Source: Asticcacaulis solisilvae (GTDB lineage Bacteria; Pseudomonadota; Alphaproteobacteria; Caulobacterales; Caulobacteraceae). Taken from it: a stretch of 64,000 nucleotides of DNA. The notes below the pieces were generated by a model. It made no database searches. It was not told where the DNA came from and worked only from the letters and a program-made list of their open reading frames with translations. The position numbers and the translations under genes were made by a program. The stretch lies in NCBI RefSeq assembly GCF_017875235.1, contig NZ_JAGGMI010000004.1, forward strand, positions 248,001 to 312,000, given 5' to 3'. This document shows positions 1 through 63,245 of this stretch, in pieces. The first letter of the stretch is position 1. Each line of letters starts with the position of its first letter.

Positions 1-2132
1 GTTTCCGAGACGTCGAGCATTTCGGAGTCGTTGTAGCAACCTTCGGTATTGCCCGGACGGTCGCAGATCGGCGTCCACTTCAGAGGCGTGTTGGTCTTGG
101 CGCCCGACAGACCGTTGATGTGACGCGAACGGTCGGCCAGGACGTCATTCGACAGCCACGGCAGGGCGCCGGGGTTGAAGACATCGCCGTTATAGAAGCC
201 GTCGCGGAAGGGCTCCGACACCCACATATCCTTGCCATAGCCCTGGAAGGTCTGGCCGGCATTACAGGTGTACGGCGCCGGCGTCGTGTTATCCAGGTTG
301 AAGGCAGGCCCGTTACAGGCGTTCCACGGCTGGATGACCGGCGACCAGTTATAGGCCGAATAGCGGACCTTCTGGTCGCGTTCGGCATGACGCACGCCGA
401 CCTTCAGCGAGTTCAGCCAGCCCGTTTCCTCGAAGCGGTATTCGGCATCGGCGCGAACCGACAGCTGGGTCGCGTCATTGTCTTCGACGTGATCCTGGAT
501 GAACGGGATGTACCAGTTGTGCGGGTTGGACAGGCCGCCCGCCGCGTAGTTGACATTGGTGCCCGGCAGCAGGTCGATCTCCGGCGTACCGTCGCCATTG
601 GTCGAGTACTTGACGTTGGCCAGCGTGTTGGCGGCGACCAGGATGTCATAGTTGTTGGTCTCGGCCGTCACATACTGGACGTCGAAATTGGCGCGCAACT
701 TTTCGGTGATTTCCCACTTCAGGTTGGCAGCGATATCGCGGGTGCCTTCTTCGTGGTCGAAGATGCGCGACTCGTTGGAAATGCCGGTGCCCTGACGCGT
801 CGAGCTACAGCCGCCACCGCCGCAGTAGTTGACGAACGGCAGGCCCGGAACGGCCGAACCGATGTCGATCGCCGCGGCAGTCGAGCCACCCCAGCCACCC
901 GACGGCGCGGTCAGCGTGCCGGAATCGAGCATGCCGTCGGCGCCGAACACAAAGGCCGGCGTGCCGTCGGCCGGCGCGATAACGGCGGTCGTCTGCGGCG
1001 AGAAGGCCGGCGCCGCCCACAGGTCGAAGAAGCCGACATTGGTCGAGCGCTCCTTCCAGGCGTTCTTGTAATAGGTGTCGTTATATTGCAGCGAGAATTG
1101 CACCGTCTTGGCGTTGTTCTGCCATTGCAGCGCCGCCGCGATACCGCGACGGTCGCGGTCATATTCGACCTGGCTGAAATTGACCTGGCGGGGCATGTAG
1201 ACCCAGCCCGTGCCGCCATAGGGGTTTGCCGTACAGGCAACGGTGCCGTCGGCATTGACATTGGCAGCCGCCGTCGTGCCGAAACCGGCCGAGCAGAAGG
1301 CGCCGATACGCTGACCGACCACGCCTTCGGTCTGCGTCAGGACGTGACCCTGGGCGTAGTTGAGCATGACGCCCCACTCACCGGCTTCGGTCTGCCAGCG
1401 GTTGGTGTAGATGCCCGAAAACTCGTAGGTCGTTTCTTCCGAACGGTCGCCATAGTTGGCCTTGGCCGACAGGCCGATGACCTGGCCCTTGCTGTCGAAC
1501 GGCAGACGGGTGCGCAGGTTGACCGAGCCGGCGATGCCGCCTTCGATCATTTCCGCCGTCAGGTTCTTGTAGCTGTCGACGCCGGCCATCAGTTCCGGTG
1601 ACACGTCGTTGAAGTTCAGCCCGCGCCCGCCGTCGGCAGTGAACACGTCACGGCCGTTCAGTTCGGTGCGTACAAAGGTCAGGCCGCGGATCAGGACCTG
1701 GGCCGGCTCGGCCGAAAAGTGCGTCGAGTCGTCCGACGACTGGAAGCGCGACACGGTGATGCCCGGCACGCGCTGCAAAGCTTCGGCGACCGACTTGTCC
1801 GGGAAGGCGCCGATATCGGTGGCGGTGATCGAATCGACGTGGGTGTCGGCGTTCTTCTTGATGTCCTGGGCGGTCTTGAGCGCCTTGCGGACGCCGACGA
1901 CAACGACGGCGTCGTCTTCAGTCGGCGCAGCGTCCTGAGCCTGCACGGCTCCGGCAACCGTCACGGCCGCCAGCGCCATGAGGGACACGCTTCCTTTCAA
2001 AGCGATATGTCGAAAAGTGTCAGCGGTTTTCGACTTAAATATCGCGCCAAAGCAAAGACCTAGATCGGATTGATTTCCTTTGAAATCATTCCGATCTCGC
2101 ATTCGGCCGCTGATGAAACGGGTGTTTCGCAT
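1..2132 (-). CDS. TonB-dependent receptor, 5' part (gene runs off the left edge)
   Basis: Outer-membrane receptor that would import a siderophore, sugar oligomer or similar ligand using TonB energy; only the first 710 codons are here. After the signal peptide (h-region ending GAVQAQD, predicted cut after Ala65) comes a TonB box-like stretch (DAVVVVGVRKALK) and a plug domain with FPDKSVAEALQRVPGITVSR and VLIRGLTFVRTELNGRDVF, typical of Caulobacter/Xanthomonas receptors. The chosen ATG (2130-2132) has a good Shine-Dalgarno sequence (GGAGAG) just upstream, and the frame stays open into the receptor. Residues about 12-44 are encoded by a palindromic repeat, giving a long n-region before the hydrophobic core. 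Alternative starts downstream of the repeat (TTG 1997-1999, GTG 1988, ATG 1979) lack a clear ribosome site and would leave a shortened signal peptide. Family assignment is firm; the ligand is unknown. Confidence 0.9.
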   Translation of the reverse strand, partial: MRNTRFISGRMRDRNDFKGNQSDLGLCFGAIFKSKTADTFRHIALKGSVSLMALAAVTVAGAVQAQDAAPTEDDAVVVVGVRKALKTAQDIKKNADTHVDSITATDIGAFPDKSVAEALQRVPGITVSRFQSSDDSTHFSAEPAQVLIRGLTFVRTELNGRDVFTADGGRGLNFNDVSPELMAGVDSYKNLTAEMIEGGIAGSVNLRTRLPFDSKGQVIGLSAKANYGDRSEETTYEFSGIYTNRWQTEAGEWGVMLNYAQGHVLTQTEGVVGQRIGAFCSAGFGTTAAANVNADGTVACTANPYGGTGWVYMPRQVNFSQVEYDRDRRGIAAALQWQNNAKTVQFSLQYNDTYYKNAWKERSTNVGFFDLWAAPAFSPQTTAVIAPADGTPAFVFGADGMLDSGTLTAPSGGWGGSTAAAIDIGSAVPGLPFVNYCGGGGCSSTRQGTGISNESRIFDHEEGTRDIAANLKWEITEKLRANFDVQYVTAETNNYDILVAANTLANVKYSTNGDGTPEIDLLPGTNVNYAAGGLSNPHNWYIPFIQDHVEDNDATQLSVRADAEYRFEETGWLNSLKVGVRHAERDQKVRYSAYNWSPVIQPWNACNGPAFNLDNTTPAPYTCNAGQTFQGYGKDMWVSEPFRDGFYNGDVFNPGALPWLSNDVLADRSRHINGLSGAKTNTPLKWTPICDRPGNTEGCYNDSEMLDVSE
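2001..2097 (-). repeat. Double-hairpin palindromic repeat, copy inside the receptor gene
   Basis: Read from 2001 upward, the copy has hairpin 1 (GCGATAT, then GTCGAAAA paired with TTTTCGAC, then ATATCGC), a linker GCGCCAAAGCAAAG and hairpin 2 (AGATCGGATTGATT paired with AATCATTCCGATCT). It is the same element as at 23167, 37251, 48790 and 56773. In the other copies the inner stem is GGCGAAAA/TTTTCGCC; here both arms changed together, keeping the pairing. It lies within translated sequence of the receptor and causes no stop or frameshift. Confidence 0.85.
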
Positions 2133-2767
2133 ATTTCTCTCCATGTTCAGTCCGATTCCCGCGGACTGGTGTTGGTGGCATCATTGTCGTTGCACCGAAG
2201 CGCGCAGGACGAAGGGCCCTGTCGCGAGACGGTGATTTTCTTGCTCTTCCAACACTTGGCTTATGGAGACTTCGGCCAGCTCGATGGCGGATGACGGCCG
2301 CCCGGCTTTGACTGTGGCTGCGAATGCTCTTTGTTTTTTGTTACAGGCTTTGTGCGGTACGCCTGCCTGTGGCGTATCTGGTCAGGCTGTCTGCCCGCCC
2401 CGCGTGCCCGGCGTGAGCCAGACGAATGCGCTATGTAGTCTCCCTGAAGTTCCGATGGCTTATGTTTTTTATCGGGCCACACAATGAGATGACGGTCATC
2501 ATCTGAGTTATATGACATGCATAATATAATGCGATGACGCGACAAGCGCAAAATCCAAATTTTTCAGATTTTTATAAATTCAAAGCGGCTTGCAAAAATA
2601 TCACGTTTTTTGTGCGCTCCGTTGCTGCGCAGGCTCGCCGCATGAGCGGCGGCACGCAGTCGCGCTTAGCTCGAAAGGTTTGATAAAACTTCTGCGTGGC
2701 ACTGAGATGAGTTGCGCTGATCCGCTTTAAGCACTCTACACTTAACTAAGTGTCCGAGCATAGCCTT
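2133..2767. other. Gene-free stretch between the receptor and the defence island
   Basis: Roughly 635 bases with no convincing gene. It must carry the promoter of the receptor gene at its left end and the left junction of the AT-richer island at its right end. The segment around 2500-2600 is markedly AT-rich (for example AAATTTTTCAGATTTTTATAA). I found no direct repeat matching the right-hand junction of the island near 6450-6560, and no integrase or transposase. Confidence 0.5.
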
Positions 2768-23000: not shown

Positions 23001-23169
23001 CGTCGACCTGAAGGAAGCCTTTAATTTCGGGCACGACATGTCGGTCAACCTGAACATCACCAACCTCAATGACGCCACGATGCGCCAGAACTTCCAGTTC
23101 GATAGCGCGCCGAACTGGTACTACAAGCCCGGCACGACCTACATGCTGGGTGTCCGCGGCAAGTTCTAG
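20092..23169 (+). CDS. TonB-dependent receptor (Caulobacter/Xanthomonas type), probable carbohydrate uptake
   Basis: A 1025-residue outer-membrane receptor. Signal peptide: ALKTALLSATILTSAVAGTAMAQ; then a TonB box-like EVVVVTGYRGSL, a plug with MGKFPDTNLAESFNRIPGI and IRGLGSSFTRIMLNGA, and a long beta-barrel ending GTTYMLGVRGKF with the C-terminal aromatic residue needed for barrel assembly. The GTG at 20092 is chosen because AAGGGAA precedes it and it begins a normal signal peptide; ATG 20008 is the alternative. The next genes encode an exported family 2 glycosidase and a sulfotransferase, so a plant- or algal-glycan ligand is plausible (inference). The TAG stop is the first three bases of a palindromic repeat. 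Confidence 0.92.
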   Translation: MLATSPRIRALKTALLSATILTSAVAGTAMAQDTAPAPAGSDTEVVVVTGYRGSLQNSAIAKKRAVGFEDSIFSEDMGKFPDTNLAESFNRIPGITIAREITGEGTTIAIRGLGSSFTRIMLNGAAVATGSTGDVNTNNSNREVDLDIFPPELFSSLTVYKSAKASLLEGGASGAVNMRQARPFDFSGDRIMYSAEANKNSLADEGGYKASFLISKKFGDFGVLAGVSHQHTVIAAEGWESVGWTNAGLSAAQNPAANRNNTGGGNWTIPATVPAGAGNGLTTGATIDQALLLSLNPGLTIQQIDNALIPRLARPMHYYGTRDRTSAVLSFEYRPSDTLRFWVDSMIAQKENDQERTDINLIGRSGSPIPINMKVDRSDCSNGCVVTEATFANAQYFLEYRPWLEKAKFASINPGFAWQIKDDLKLTVDANYTIGTFRRDSPTVLVVTKPNSGLTVTYKNNLVDAPTTTSTVDLNDPSNYQWNGGRLNMQSETRQTETRGLHADLTWGTSEFNIQFGLAYDDTSRKILPFDNTTPWSNLACGNNPTVNIGGTPCRGDVIVGTAAAVNAANSAYSAYPGYGTGYTAGATGTINYQGSAIPQSALASYLMPGPYGYITVDWDRFTDVTKYYQFLDEAPPAGGSNISSPRSYLREKVEGAYIQVNGDKDIVGHRLRYDFGIRAVTTTQIIGGQSSFADPRNTSATTPADGGRYPNLVVFSYTNTKYKNYLPSANFALNVTDKLITRLAASTTMTRPNPSNMLPGLGFGDPSAFQGTLGNPSLTPYISKNLDFGLEYYTGKEGYVALTAFNKKVDGFTTQLNTTYPFSYLANFGVTYETLGATQKTAIDLRGGPVGATVSLAQQVNVEGLLDIKGLEFSWVQPLDQWWDRLEGFGFSTNYTKIDQEGTGAAPAIALGVPEVTWNFTGFYERNGWSIRLSDTYRDGSQASGTNQNGIPNAALWNESYEQMDLSASVDLKEAFNFGHDMSVNLNITNLNDATMRQNFQFDSAPNWYYKPGTTYMLGVRGKF

Positions 23170-23270
23170 AGCGATACGGCGAAAAGTATAAGCGGTTTTC
23201 GCCTTAAATATCGCGACAAAACAAAAGCTTAGATCGGTATGATGTTTCCATTTAAAATCATACCGATCTA
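23167..23270 (+). repeat. Double-hairpin palindromic repeat abutting a stop codon
   Basis: It begins TAGAGCGATACGGCGAAAAG, hairpin 1 closing with TTTTCGCCTTAAATATCGC; linker GCGACAAAACAAAAG; hairpin 2 AGATCGGTATGAT paired with ATCATACCGATCT, ending 23270. The initial TAG is the stop codon of the receptor gene. The hairpins could also act as a transcript 3' end; there is no long T-run. Confidence 0.9.
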
Positions 23271-23414
23271 AAGCGATTCATTGTTCCTGAACGCCTCTCC
23301 CGAGGCTGTTCAGACAGGGCGCGCACCCGTGACGCCCGATCTCCCTGGGGTGGTGCATCTTGCGGTGCGCCGCCCTTTTTTTGAGACCTGCTCTATACAA
23401 CGAAGGAGACCACC

Positions 23415-35820: not shown

Positions 35821-37253
35821 TGACCCGCACAATTCTTTGCAATCCTGTCCTTTTCGGTTTTGCGACCACAGTCGCCCTGATGGCCGCATCCTCCGCCAAT
35901 GCCTCGGTCGAAAGCATGGCGACGCCGCGCGACGGCGACCGCAACTGCACCAACGCCCAGGAAAACAACAATTTCGCCCTGTGGCGCCCCTCTGATGGGC
36001 GGCTCGTCATCGGCGGCGAAGGCAAGGCGAAATTCGAATTCTACGGCCATGGCATCGACCTGTCGCCCGACGCCCAGCTTACCGGCATCAGCGGCGCTTC
36101 GGCGCGGCGCGTCGATGCGCGGGGCGGGGCGGTCAACGGCGCGCGCGGCTGCGGCAATATCGGCTCTGTCATCGTCGAGATCGACCTGCCGGGCGTGGGG
36201 TCGGCGAACAACGGCACGCTGAGGATCGGCTCGGAAACCATTGCCTTCACAGCCACGCCGCGCGTCGCCCAGAATGTCGAATGGGATGACGCCAACAAGG
36301 CCGACGGCCGCGCCTCGGGCGGCACTACGGCCGTCAGTACGGCGCCGCCACCGCCGCCACCGCCAACCAGCAAAAACGGCGGGGGCACCTGCACCGGCCC
36401 CGGCTGCCCTGGTCCCGCCAACAGCGTCCAGGCGCCGACAAGCAGCGGCTCTACAGTCACCCAGCCGGACACCCGCACCCTGCCGCGCTGCGCCGACGCC
36501 TATGGCATGAAGGGCGAGATCAGCAATGTCGGCCGCGATCTGACCCTGACCCTGCCGATCATCCGCACTGGGGCGATAGAACAGTGCTATGGCCGCCACC
36601 TGCTGACCCGCTTCGTGACAAAAGGCGTGAACGACGCCACCACGCTGTCCGGTCCGGCGCCCGCGCTCGGCATGACCGCGCCTCCGGCCCTGCACGCCAG
36701 CTTCCGCCAGCAGGACGGCCTTAAGGACAAGGCCGGGCTGATCACGCTCGACGACGATGTGTTGAAGACCTTCGTCGGCCGCCAGAGCTTCGACATCGAG
36801 ATTACTCCGGGTTCGGGGTCGCGCCTGAAGCTGATCCTGAAGTCCGAGCCCGCCTATGGCCCCAAGGCCATCGCCGCGCCGCTCATCAATCCCAATATGG
36901 GACGGATGAGCTCCGACATGGTGCTGAAAGTCACGACCTATCAGGCGGCGGGCACGGGCGAAACCTTCTCGTGGCGTTTGACGCCCAACGACGGCGCGCC
37001 CGGCAATTGCTTCGTGCAGACCTCGGGTACGGCCACGGCGACTTCGGGCGCGACGGCCTTCGAGTTGCCGCTGCGCGCCACGGAAGCTGCAAACTGCAGC
37101 GGCAAGAGTTTCCGGGCGACGATCGCCACCGCCTCGGTCGCCTCACCCGCCGGCACACCATTCGAACAGTCGGTCAGCTTCGTGCTGCAGCCGTTGGCGA
37201 CAGTCCGCGTCCCGAACCAAAATACACCGCAGGTCACGCGGCCAAGCTTCTAG
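35820..37253 (+). CDS. Exported proline-rich-linker protein of unknown function, last gene of secretin cluster
   Basis: A 477-residue exported protein (signal around VLFGFATTVALMAASSANAS). Two folded parts are joined by a low-complexity linker with eight consecutive prolines (STAPPPPPPPPTSKN) and TCTGPGCPGP. The first part contains NNFALWRPSDGRLVIGGEGK; the second (about 230-460) is beta-rich with cysteines CADAYG, EQCYGRH, GNCFVQTSG and AANCSGKS. No catalytic motif is seen; an adhesin- or pilus-like surface role is possible. It starts by overlapping the upstream stop. Its TAG stop is the first three bases of a palindromic repeat. Confidence 0.65.
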   Translation: MTRTILCNPVLFGFATTVALMAASSANASVESMATPRDGDRNCTNAQENNNFALWRPSDGRLVIGGEGKAKFEFYGHGIDLSPDAQLTGISGASARRVDARGGAVNGARGCGNIGSVIVEIDLPGVGSANNGTLRIGSETIAFTATPRVAQNVEWDDANKADGRASGGTTAVSTAPPPPPPPTSKNGGGTCTGPGCPGPANSVQAPTSSGSTVTQPDTRTLPRCADAYGMKGEISNVGRDLTLTLPIIRTGAIEQCYGRHLLTRFVTKGVNDATTLSGPAPALGMTAPPALHASFRQQDGLKDKAGLITLDDDVLKTFVGRQSFDIEITPGSGSRLKLILKSEPAYGPKAIAAPLINPNMGRMSSDMVLKVTTYQAAGTGETFSWRLTPNDGAPGNCFVQTSGTATATSGATAFELPLRATEAANCSGKSFRATIATASVASPAGTPFEQSVSFVLQPLATVRVPNQNTPQVTRPSF

Positions 37254-37356
37254 AGCGATATGGCGAAAAGTGTGAAGCGGTTTTCGCCATAAATATCGCG
37301 ACAAAGTAAAAACTTAGATCGGGATGATTGCTTCCATCCAAAATCATTCCGATCTA
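37251..37356 (+). repeat. Double-hairpin palindromic repeat abutting a stop codon
   Basis: Starts TAGAGCGATATGGCGAAAAG with hairpin 1 closing TTTTCGCCATAAATATCGC; linker GCGACAAAGTAAAAAC; hairpin 2 AGATCGGGATGATT paired with AATCATTCCGATCT. The first TAG is the stop of the preceding gene, exactly as at 23167. Confidence 0.9.
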
Positions 37357-37421
37357 GTTCCCGCATAGTGAACGATGGCGTGTCCTGCAAAAGGGCCGCC
37401 ATCGCTCTTTTCATTCGCGCG

Positions 37422-48764: not shown

Positions 48765-48789
48765 CCGAACCTCCTGTAATATAAGCGCC

Positions 48790-48884
48790 AGATCGGTATG
48801 ATTTTAAGTGGAACCGATCTAAGTTTTTGTTTTGTCGCGATATTTAAGGCGAAAACCGCTTACACTTTTCGCCATATCGCTCTA
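48790..48884 (-). repeat. Double-hairpin palindromic repeat abutting a stop codon, within an operon
   Basis: In minus-strand direction it starts TAGAGCGATATGGCGAAAAG; hairpin 1 closes with TTTTCGCCTTAAATATCGC, linker GCGACAAAACAAAAAC, hairpin 2 AGATCGGTTCC with a shortened left arm and AATCATACCGATCT. The first TAG is the stop of the SDR gene. It fills the gap between that gene and the ribosome site of the 23-codon ORF. Confidence 0.9.
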
Positions 48885-49631
48885 ACAGATTTTCTGATGC
48901 AAGGGCTCAATGCGCAAGGTGACGACATCGACACCCGGCGGCCGCGTCGCCGCGTACATGATCGCGTCGGCGACTTCCGCCGGGGGCAGCATCTCGTGGC
49001 TCTCGACGAATTCCGCCAGCTTGTCGTCGGAATAGGGCTGCAGATGCGTGCCGATCGCCCCCGGCTCGATCAGGGTCAGCCGGATCTTTTCGGCCATCAG
49101 TTCCTTGCGCAATGTCTCGGCGAACAGGGCCACGCCACCTTTTGACGCATTGTAAACGCTCTCGCCGACCGCCTTGATGTGGACGCTGATCGAACCGACC
49201 AGGATGATCATGCCGTCCGTTACGCCTGACGCCTTGATACGGTTGATGGCCTGTTTCGTCGCCGCGACGTAGCTGACCAGGTTGGTGTCGATGACGGCGC
49301 GCCAGTCTGCATCGTCCAGTTCCATCAGGGGCAAGGCGCCAATGCCCGTGCAGGCGACCAAGATGTCCAACCCACCCAGCCAGTCGTCGACCTTGGCGAA
49401 GGTTTGCGCGATGCCGTCCGCCGTGGCCGCGTCGGCGGCGACGATGTCTATGTCGCCCGGCCCGCCGCCGAGGCTGTCGCGGACGGCGCCCAAGGCGGCT
49501 TCGTCGCGGTCAGTGATCAGCACGCTGGCGCCCGCCATGACCATGCGGGCGGCAATATTGCGGCCGACGCCGCCCGCCCCGCCGGTGACCAGGACGCGTT
49601 TGTCTTTTAAGCATTCTTCCGGTTTTTCCAT
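48882..49631 (-). CDS. Short-chain dehydrogenase/reductase (paralogue A)
   Basis: A 249-residue cytoplasmic NAD(P)-dependent oxidoreductase. The Rossmann glycine motif is VLVTGGAGGVGRNIAARM; the catalytic Tyr and Lys are in ESVYNASKGG with the upstream Ser in ILVGSIS. It is clearly related to the SDR at 50744, with matching N-terminal cofactor and C-terminal segments (VVTLRIEPLHQ here, VVNLRIEPLIQ there). ATG 49631 has GGAG eight bases upstream; a TTG at 49649 would overlap the previous stop. The final TAG comes from a palindromic repeat. Substrate probably a sugar or polyol derivative. Confidence 0.9.
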   Translation of the reverse strand: MEKPEECLKDKRVLVTGGAGGVGRNIAARMVMAGASVLITDRDEAALGAVRDSLGGGPGDIDIVAADAATADGIAQTFAKVDDWLGGLDILVACTGIGALPLMELDDADWRAVIDTNLVSYVAATKQAINRIKASGVTDGMIILVGSISVHIKAVGESVYNASKGGVALFAETLRKELMAEKIRLTLIEPGAIGTHLQPYSDDKLAEFVESHEMLPPAEVADAIMYAATRPPGVDVVTLRIEPLHQKIC

Positions 49632-56740: not shown

Positions 56741-56772
56741 AAGTCCGGATTTTTTACGTTATCGCGATATTT

Positions 56773-56874
56773 AGATCGGTATGATTTTAAATGGAAACAT
56801 TATACCAATCTACGTTTTGTTTTGTCGCGATATTTAAGGCGAAAACCGCTTACACTTTTCGCCATATCGCTCTA
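56773..56874 (-). repeat. Double-hairpin palindromic repeat
   Basis: In minus direction it starts TAGAGCGATATGGCGAAAAG, with hairpin 1, linker GCGACAAAACAAAACG and hairpin 2 (AGATTGGTATAAT / AATCATACCGATCT). Directly beyond hairpin 2 there is a further fragment (AAATATCGCGATAACG) that resembles the hairpin 1 end of another copy, giving a composite with the element at 56634. Confidence 0.88.
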
Positions 56875-56975
56875 GCCGAAATCCGCCCAACGCGTTTCGA
56901 CGTATCGCTCCACAGTCCGGCACACCTGTCAGGAGGCCGCGCACCTGACCCACAGCCTCCGGAAAGCACACGGCC

Positions 56976-63065: not shown

Positions 63066-63124
63066 GTCTCATAGGATTTTGACTGGACTCAGAATCAGAA
63101 CTCTCGCATCATCCCGCAAAACAC

Positions 63125-63226
63125 AGAGCATCGCCCGCTTCAAATGAAGCGAAGCTATGCTCTTATTTTTCGTTTTGTCGCATTTCCTAACGGCGAACCG
63201 CTTTGGCACTTCGCCGGGAAATGCTC
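63125..63226. repeat. Second-subfamily double-hairpin repeat upstream of the HPr gene
   Basis: AGAGCATCGC...GCTATGCTCT with inner CGCTTC/GAAGCG forms one hairpin (63125-63163); the linker TTTTTCGTTTTGTCGC matches the reverse of the GCGACAAAAC linker in the main family; GCATTTCC...GGAAATGC with inner CGGCGAA/TTCGCCG forms the second. It ends about 10 bases before the AAGGAGG of the HPr gene and is open in the HPr frame. Confidence 0.75.
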
Positions 63227-63245
63227 CGCCTCCCAAGGAGGTCCC

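Follow-up and report, generated by a model that had tools for sequence, protein, structure and literature searches.

In a 64,000-nt stretch of the Asticcacaulis solisilvae genome (hereafter the window), we found a TonB-dependent receptor gene that very probably carries a two-armed, non-autonomous repeat inserted in frame in its signal peptide and translated from the ATG at position 2132. The receptor frame (3..2132, minus strand, with its 3' end outside the window) opens at this ATG, crosses the complete two-hairpin repeat, and enters the signal-peptide core. A first-pass annotation, made from the letters alone, had described an in-frame repeat in the signal-peptide region of the receptor with a GGAGAG ribosome site before ATG 2132, and this is borne out by both the sequence and the limits given by our covariance model.

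The receptor frame and its insert

Upstream of ATG 2132, the minus strand reads ...GAACATGGAGAGAAAT, in which a Shine-Dalgarno-like GGAGAG (2137..2142, minus strand) lies 4 nt 5' of the start, and an additional in-frame ATG at 2144 overlaps this motif. From ATG 2132 the frame encodes MRNTRFISGRM, then RDRNDFKGNQSDLGLCFGAIFKSKTADTFRHIA, and then LKGSVSLMALAAVTVA. Judging from the n-region lengths of its homologues, the first 11 codons (2100..2132, minus strand) are the receptor's own n-region ahead of the repeat. Codons 12-44 (2099-2001) belong to the repeat, and codons 45 onwards (LKGSVSLMALAAVTVAGAVQA) make up the signal-peptide core, with the family-conserved LKGSVSL motif and a hydrophobic stretch (1938..2000, minus strand). 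The frame taken from ATG 2144 matched TIGR01782 with 318.8 bits against a cut-off of 310, and a Pfam Plug domain was also matched. The frame is unbroken across all 710 codons that the window holds from ATG 2132, its codon usage is coding-like, and it shares 83% identity with its G009 orthologue. The receptor is missing from our codon-usage map, which displays antisense ORFs in its place, because ORFs extending past the window edge were excluded. There are 47 matches to this receptor in its own genome.

The focal repeat copy spans 1997..2099 on the minus strand (103 nt by the covariance model, 103.5 bits). Its hairpins have a predicted energy of -37.4 kcal/mol compared with a shuffled mean of -21.7 kcal/mol (z -5.0), and none of 200 shuffles was as stable. 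The copy shares 82% identity with the family consensus, both of its terminal TA dinucleotides are mutated, and by eye its differences from the consensus have no third-position bias. None of the other genomes searched has this receptor with the insertion.

We compared the distance from start to core motif across 30 homologous receptor loci in Asticcacaulis. A recognizable LKGxVS-type motif is present in 20, the focal one among them; the 10 without such a motif were left out of the distance measurement. At the 19 homologous loci, the motif is preceded at 4-17 residues by a start that has a ribosome site; for eight of them this distance is only 4 residues. The focal receptor has 44 residues in this interval, or 11 when the repeat is left out. 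Its closest orthologue, from Asticcacaulis sp. AC460 (83% identity), has the N-terminus MKKLNTGQRSVM-LRGSVSL, with its own GGAGA site, an upstream start, and no repeat. It had been predicted that orthologues would lack codons 12-44 while keeping MRNTRF and the core motif; the AC460 protein lacks these codons and retains the motif as LRGSVSL, but MRNTRF is not kept. Residue by residue, codons 1-11 show no clear homology to the orthologues, so that upstream of the insert homology is judged by length and position. BLAST at E<=0.001 gave no match to the focal repeat in the AC460 genome, while the more sensitive covariance model gave 46 diverged family members there (best 2.5e-11). We saw no ribosome site in the sequence ahead of the TTG directly 3' of the repeat, and this, together with the homologue distances and the AC460 start, favours initiation at 2132 over a later start. 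The proposed insertion into the n-region of the signal peptide is thus supported by the distances at the 19 loci, by the AC460 orthologue, and by two further in-frame cases described below.

The repeat family, its target sites and its open frame

The covariance model was built from 34 copies and gave at least 146 matches in the own genome, where 150 of 2315 candidates were scored; BLAST gave 42. This number of repeats is far above chance. Model matches occur in all 25 Asticcacaulis genomes, own included, and with stricter filters 57 of 119 Caulobacteraceae genomes and 13 of 22 genera have the repeat (own genus counted). Parts of it, mostly arm 2, match 41 Rhizobium plasmid records, and Rfam at its gathering threshold identified only a tRNA in the whole window. 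The own-genome consensus is 106 nt long, with two stems and with YTAG and CTAR at its 5' and 3' ends, and among the 100 best own copies no position of these ends is kept in fewer than 91. Of 27 consensus pairs, 7 show a two-sided change at least once, and variants of 118-119 nt have an enlarged arm-2 loop. For the count of terminal repeats, 246 copies were considered and 95 set aside, and of the 151 with intact ends 109 have YTAGAKCG at their 5' end and 123 have YTAGAGCG at their 3' end read as the complement. Copies also overlap and cluster at G000:C11:131008-131188 and 131734-131838 (L103), where nested insertions are possible. The motif GANTC is found in only 4 of 136 own copies against 45 expected by shuffling, a strong depletion, and it occurs anywhere in 33 of 85 sister-genome copies. 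Relatives in other genera mostly keep it in the arm-1 loop: the motif is present in 14 of 15 copies, and in 12 of these it reads GAATC and occupies positions 19-23.

Besides the focal copy, the window holds four close copies and a diverged one at 63123..63229 (plus strand, 42.5 bits). The four close copies had been annotated as intergenic, which applies only to the 105-nt copy at 56771..56875 (plus strand). The copies at 23166..23271 and 37250..37357 (both minus strand) and the 98-nt copy at 48788..48885 (plus strand) each share 4 nt, including the stop codon, with a neighbouring ORF. By the codon-usage map, the terminal TAG of the first is the stop of a plus-strand ORF ending at 23169, that of the second is the stop of a plus-strand ORF ending at 37253, and the third overlaps the minus-strand ORF 48882-49631 at its stop. 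It had further been suggested that the copies at 48790 and 56773 are open and encode similar peptides. Only their 3' halves encode a similar peptide, and neither is open end to end in that phase: the 98-nt copy (L019) is open throughout in another phase only, and the 105-nt copy (L023) in no frame.

Across the own genome, a coding ORF (by codon score) runs into the repeat on 67 of 272 repeat sides. In 62 of these 67 the phase makes the terminal TAG of the repeat the stop, and 56 end exactly there, as do 27 of 32 entering ORFs in the sister genomes. The repeats sit on stop codons more often than in frame inside genes. Plasmids allowed a direct comparison of occupied and empty sites, as pASEM-1 has 17 model matches, nine of which have both flanks collinear in pASTEX01, while a tenth spans a rearrangement. 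At three of the nine collinear sites, a TAG that is single in the empty site is present in both flanks once the repeat is inserted. TA or TAG is therefore duplicated at three insertion sites, the focal site not among them. At iolG the 106-nt copy gives a net gain of 102 nt, and at the other two clean sites the gain is 101 nt each; borders are less exact at the remaining six sites. All three clean empty sites are stop codons, belonging to iolG and to genes for an alginate lyase and a TonB receptor, and the annotated end of galB is overlapped by a fourth copy. Because of the TAG shared by the flanks and the stop-codon positions, insertion apparently targets TA in a YTAR context, with the repeat ends regenerating the stop. 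Since TAG is read inward from either end, a repeat that inserts into a TAA or TAG stop would restore a stop codon.

Sense frame 1 of the repeat stays open along the full length of 80 of 136 own copies, 59 of 85 sister-genome copies among the matches listed, 8 of 15 copies from other genera, and 3 of 10 further Asticcacaulis copies; in shuffled own and sister copies, about 15% are open per frame. After clustering, four of seven independent copy groups are open, with 0.9 expected by shuffling. With only seven independent clusters, this openness is no more than suggestive of selection. One copy, L312:5737-5839 (NC_014818.1 105737-105839), fills about half of ASTEX_RS17880, a hypothetical CDS of 64 residues that the repeat may have created as a spurious ORF.

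In-frame insertions and competing explanations

We screened 221 copies for in-frame insertion, comprising 136 of the 146 own copies (L001-L030 and L074-L173) and 85 sister copies among the matches listed (L198-L276 and six earlier loci). A case was counted as supported when an upstream ATG with a ribosome site was followed by an in-frame run into a coding ORF that had homologues without the repeat. Two of the 221 copies were supported in this way, the focal copy and G000:C1:458323-458440; this count covers supported cases only, because six more ORFs that have a start upstream and a weak Shine-Dalgarno-like match (L011, L127, L130, L157 antisense, L169, and L250) were set aside by eye. The second case lies in another signal peptide of the own genome, MTRKTFLARRPGQAV-[repeat]-GALSVTLLGTAIPLTGLAA, for which the orthologues in G013 and G005 read MPVSNTLARKTRAGLAVTLLLGASPLPVLAA and those in G008 and G012 likewise have no repeat. 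As the G013 and G005 orthologues match both flanks, homology is found on both sides of this insert.

A third case, outside of the 221, is a shortened copy of 84 nt (39.9 bits) at L315:10511-10594 (NZ_AP018829.1), identified in the Asticcacaulis excentricus plasmid comparison within the annotated gene EM6_RS16105 of strain M6. This gene is 2349 nt long compared with 2274 nt for ASTEX_RS17865 of strain CB 48, and the additional 75 nt, or 25 codons, fall exactly at the repeat with both frames intact. The corresponding gene of Asticcacaulis sp. DW145 (2271 nt) has no repeat either. Neither of the two further in-frame proteins had a Pfam match over the cut-off, and the M6 protein had no PDB relative at E<=0.01. 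The strain pair M6 and CB 48 allows a direct test of in-frame insertion.

Supported in-frame insertions are rare in this family, and we found no further supportable N-terminal case among the 85 sister copies in the matches listed. Other open-frame copies that run into coding ORFs (L011, L026, L133, L157, L165, and others) were rejected, as the gene apparently starts 3' of the repeat or no upstream ribosome site is present. The candidate H3 below a GH95 gene was also rejected, with an overlap with the CDS end of just 8 nt by BLAST or 49 nt by a weak model match. At L252 (G007:C1:953326-953431), an antisense coding ORF enters and runs through the repeat, a possible C-terminal extension, and the copy L250 (G007:C3:60542-60647) lies directly before what by eye appears to be a transposase fragment, in the same frame and with an upstream ATG and GGAG.

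We propose that the focal repeat, presumably by transposition, entered the receptor signal peptide at a TA target, separating its charged start from its hydrophobic core. Where the YTA of a target is read as a leucine codon, an insert would be translated. Sense frame 1 of the focal copy is free of stops and keeps the receptor frame, and a ribosome starting at ATG 2132 would be expected to read through both hairpins. In the resulting pre-protein, the stretch ahead of the conserved core motif would grow from 11 to 44 residues, and the part encoded by the repeat would probably be cut off with the signal peptide upon export. Such an insert may be tolerated because the n-region accepts additional length and would be removed from the mature protein. 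Extended n-regions are tolerated in some exported proteins, such as autotransporters. Among the points against this reading, the 101-nt net gains at two of the three clean sites are not multiples of three, and strong hairpins within a coding sequence could lower expression.

The repeat might instead lie in the 5' untranslated leader, with the start inside or after it at the TTG (MKGSVSLMALAAVTVAGAVQA), at a later GTG, or at ATG 1979. The upstream frame could then be open by chance, since most copies are open in frame 1 anyway (80 of 136 own copies). A TTG start would give a plausible short signal peptide, 8 of the 19 measured homologues have as few as 4 residues before the motif, and at several other copies the gene apparently starts 3' of the repeat. 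However, the TTG has no ribosome site before it and ATG 1979 would leave the protein without a charged n-region, whereas ATG 2132 has a good ribosome site at the distance typical of the family once the repeat is left out, and the closest orthologue starts upstream of the homologous position. We therefore consider a leader location unlikely. It is less likely still that the insertion spoiled the signal peptide or expression of the gene and that the receptor is a decaying pseudogene. The divergence of the focal copy (82% identity to the consensus) and the many related stretches in the genome, with 47 receptor matches, are consistent with decay, but 710 intact codons, coding-like codon usage and 83% identity to the orthologue argue against it. 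We see an equally slim chance that the copy is kept since its hairpins regulate the receptor mRNA, through its stability or early elongation, with coding being incidental. Its paired structure is indeed strong (z -5.0), and mRNA roles are reported for other MITE RNAs (PMC2229807), but the closest orthologue has no repeat, and nothing sets the focal copy apart from the others.

Returning to a translated in-frame insert, we tentatively suggest that the repeat could be shaped to be harmless in two codon phases. Its TAG ends would restore a stop codon in one, and at a leucine YTA in the other a canonical copy of 106 or 118 nt would add whole open codons. On this tentative view the repeat would be a translatable cassette and a recurrent source of protein inserts, signal-peptide n-regions included.

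Comparison with known repeat elements

The family resembles the CcrM-associated intergenic repeats (CIR) of Caulobacter (Chen and Shapiro 2003, via Delihas 2008, PMC2229807), to judge from published descriptions of CIR. Both are about 110 bp long, have two inverted-repeat arms with a linker and a terminal TA, and are abundant in Caulobacteraceae, and copies of our family in other genera have GAATC in the arm-1 loop, as described for CIR. Delihas 2008 gives CIR as having no terminal inverted repeats, an unknown target duplication, no open frame (closed in all six frames), and no intragenic copies (PMC2229807), and a 2024 review describes them as strictly intergenic (PMC10969869). In this species, by contrast, the copies have largely lost GANTC, are often open in frame, and occur in frame in genes. 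We treat the family as CIR-like and have not filed it as CIR, because the GANTC feature fails in this species. The first-pass annotation had named no earlier description of in-frame insertion for Caulobacteraceae; the family itself is not new there, given its resemblance to CIR, and only the intragenic copies with an open frame appear undescribed in the literature consulted. Our searches of open-licence literature brought up no account of repeats inserting into genes of Asticcacaulis or Caulobacter. What emerges is a CIR-like family whose copies are frequently open in frame, cause TA or TAG to be duplicated, mostly fall on stop codons where they meet genes, and can sit in frame in proteins.

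Among mobile elements, copies of the family other than the focal one show the target-site duplication and short terminal inverted repeats of TA-target MITEs. We rejected a RAYT transposase as the mover: the Y1 (RAYT) transposase of REP/RAYT elements (PF01797) has no matches in the own genome, and it is present in 4 of 25 genus genomes. The QMITE elements of Coxiella (PMC5896051) share both in-frame gene insertions and one listed stop-codon overlap with our family, in a different host. A signal peptide is also the site of the Yersinia RU-2/YPAL element in YPO1552 (Delihas 2007, PMC2759123). There, the RU-2 peptide has a cluster of hydrophobic residues and itself forms part of the signal peptide, whereas the focal insert would lengthen an existing n-region. 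Rickettsia palindromic elements are described as palindromes of 105-146 bp with an open frame, inserted in frame in unrelated protein genes (PMC2229807, PMC10969869). The likeness to them that was proposed at first holds for the effect only, in that three palindromic copies of our family have entered protein genes in frame through an open frame; such insertions are frequent in Rickettsia, while supported ones are rare here. These cases show that in-frame insertion of a MITE is a known kind of event, and what is new is the family involved and the n-region setting in this genus. We regard the focal case as a probable MITE-like insertion that resembles the Rickettsia elements in its effect, and it would extend this form of protein invasion to the free-living Caulobacteraceae.
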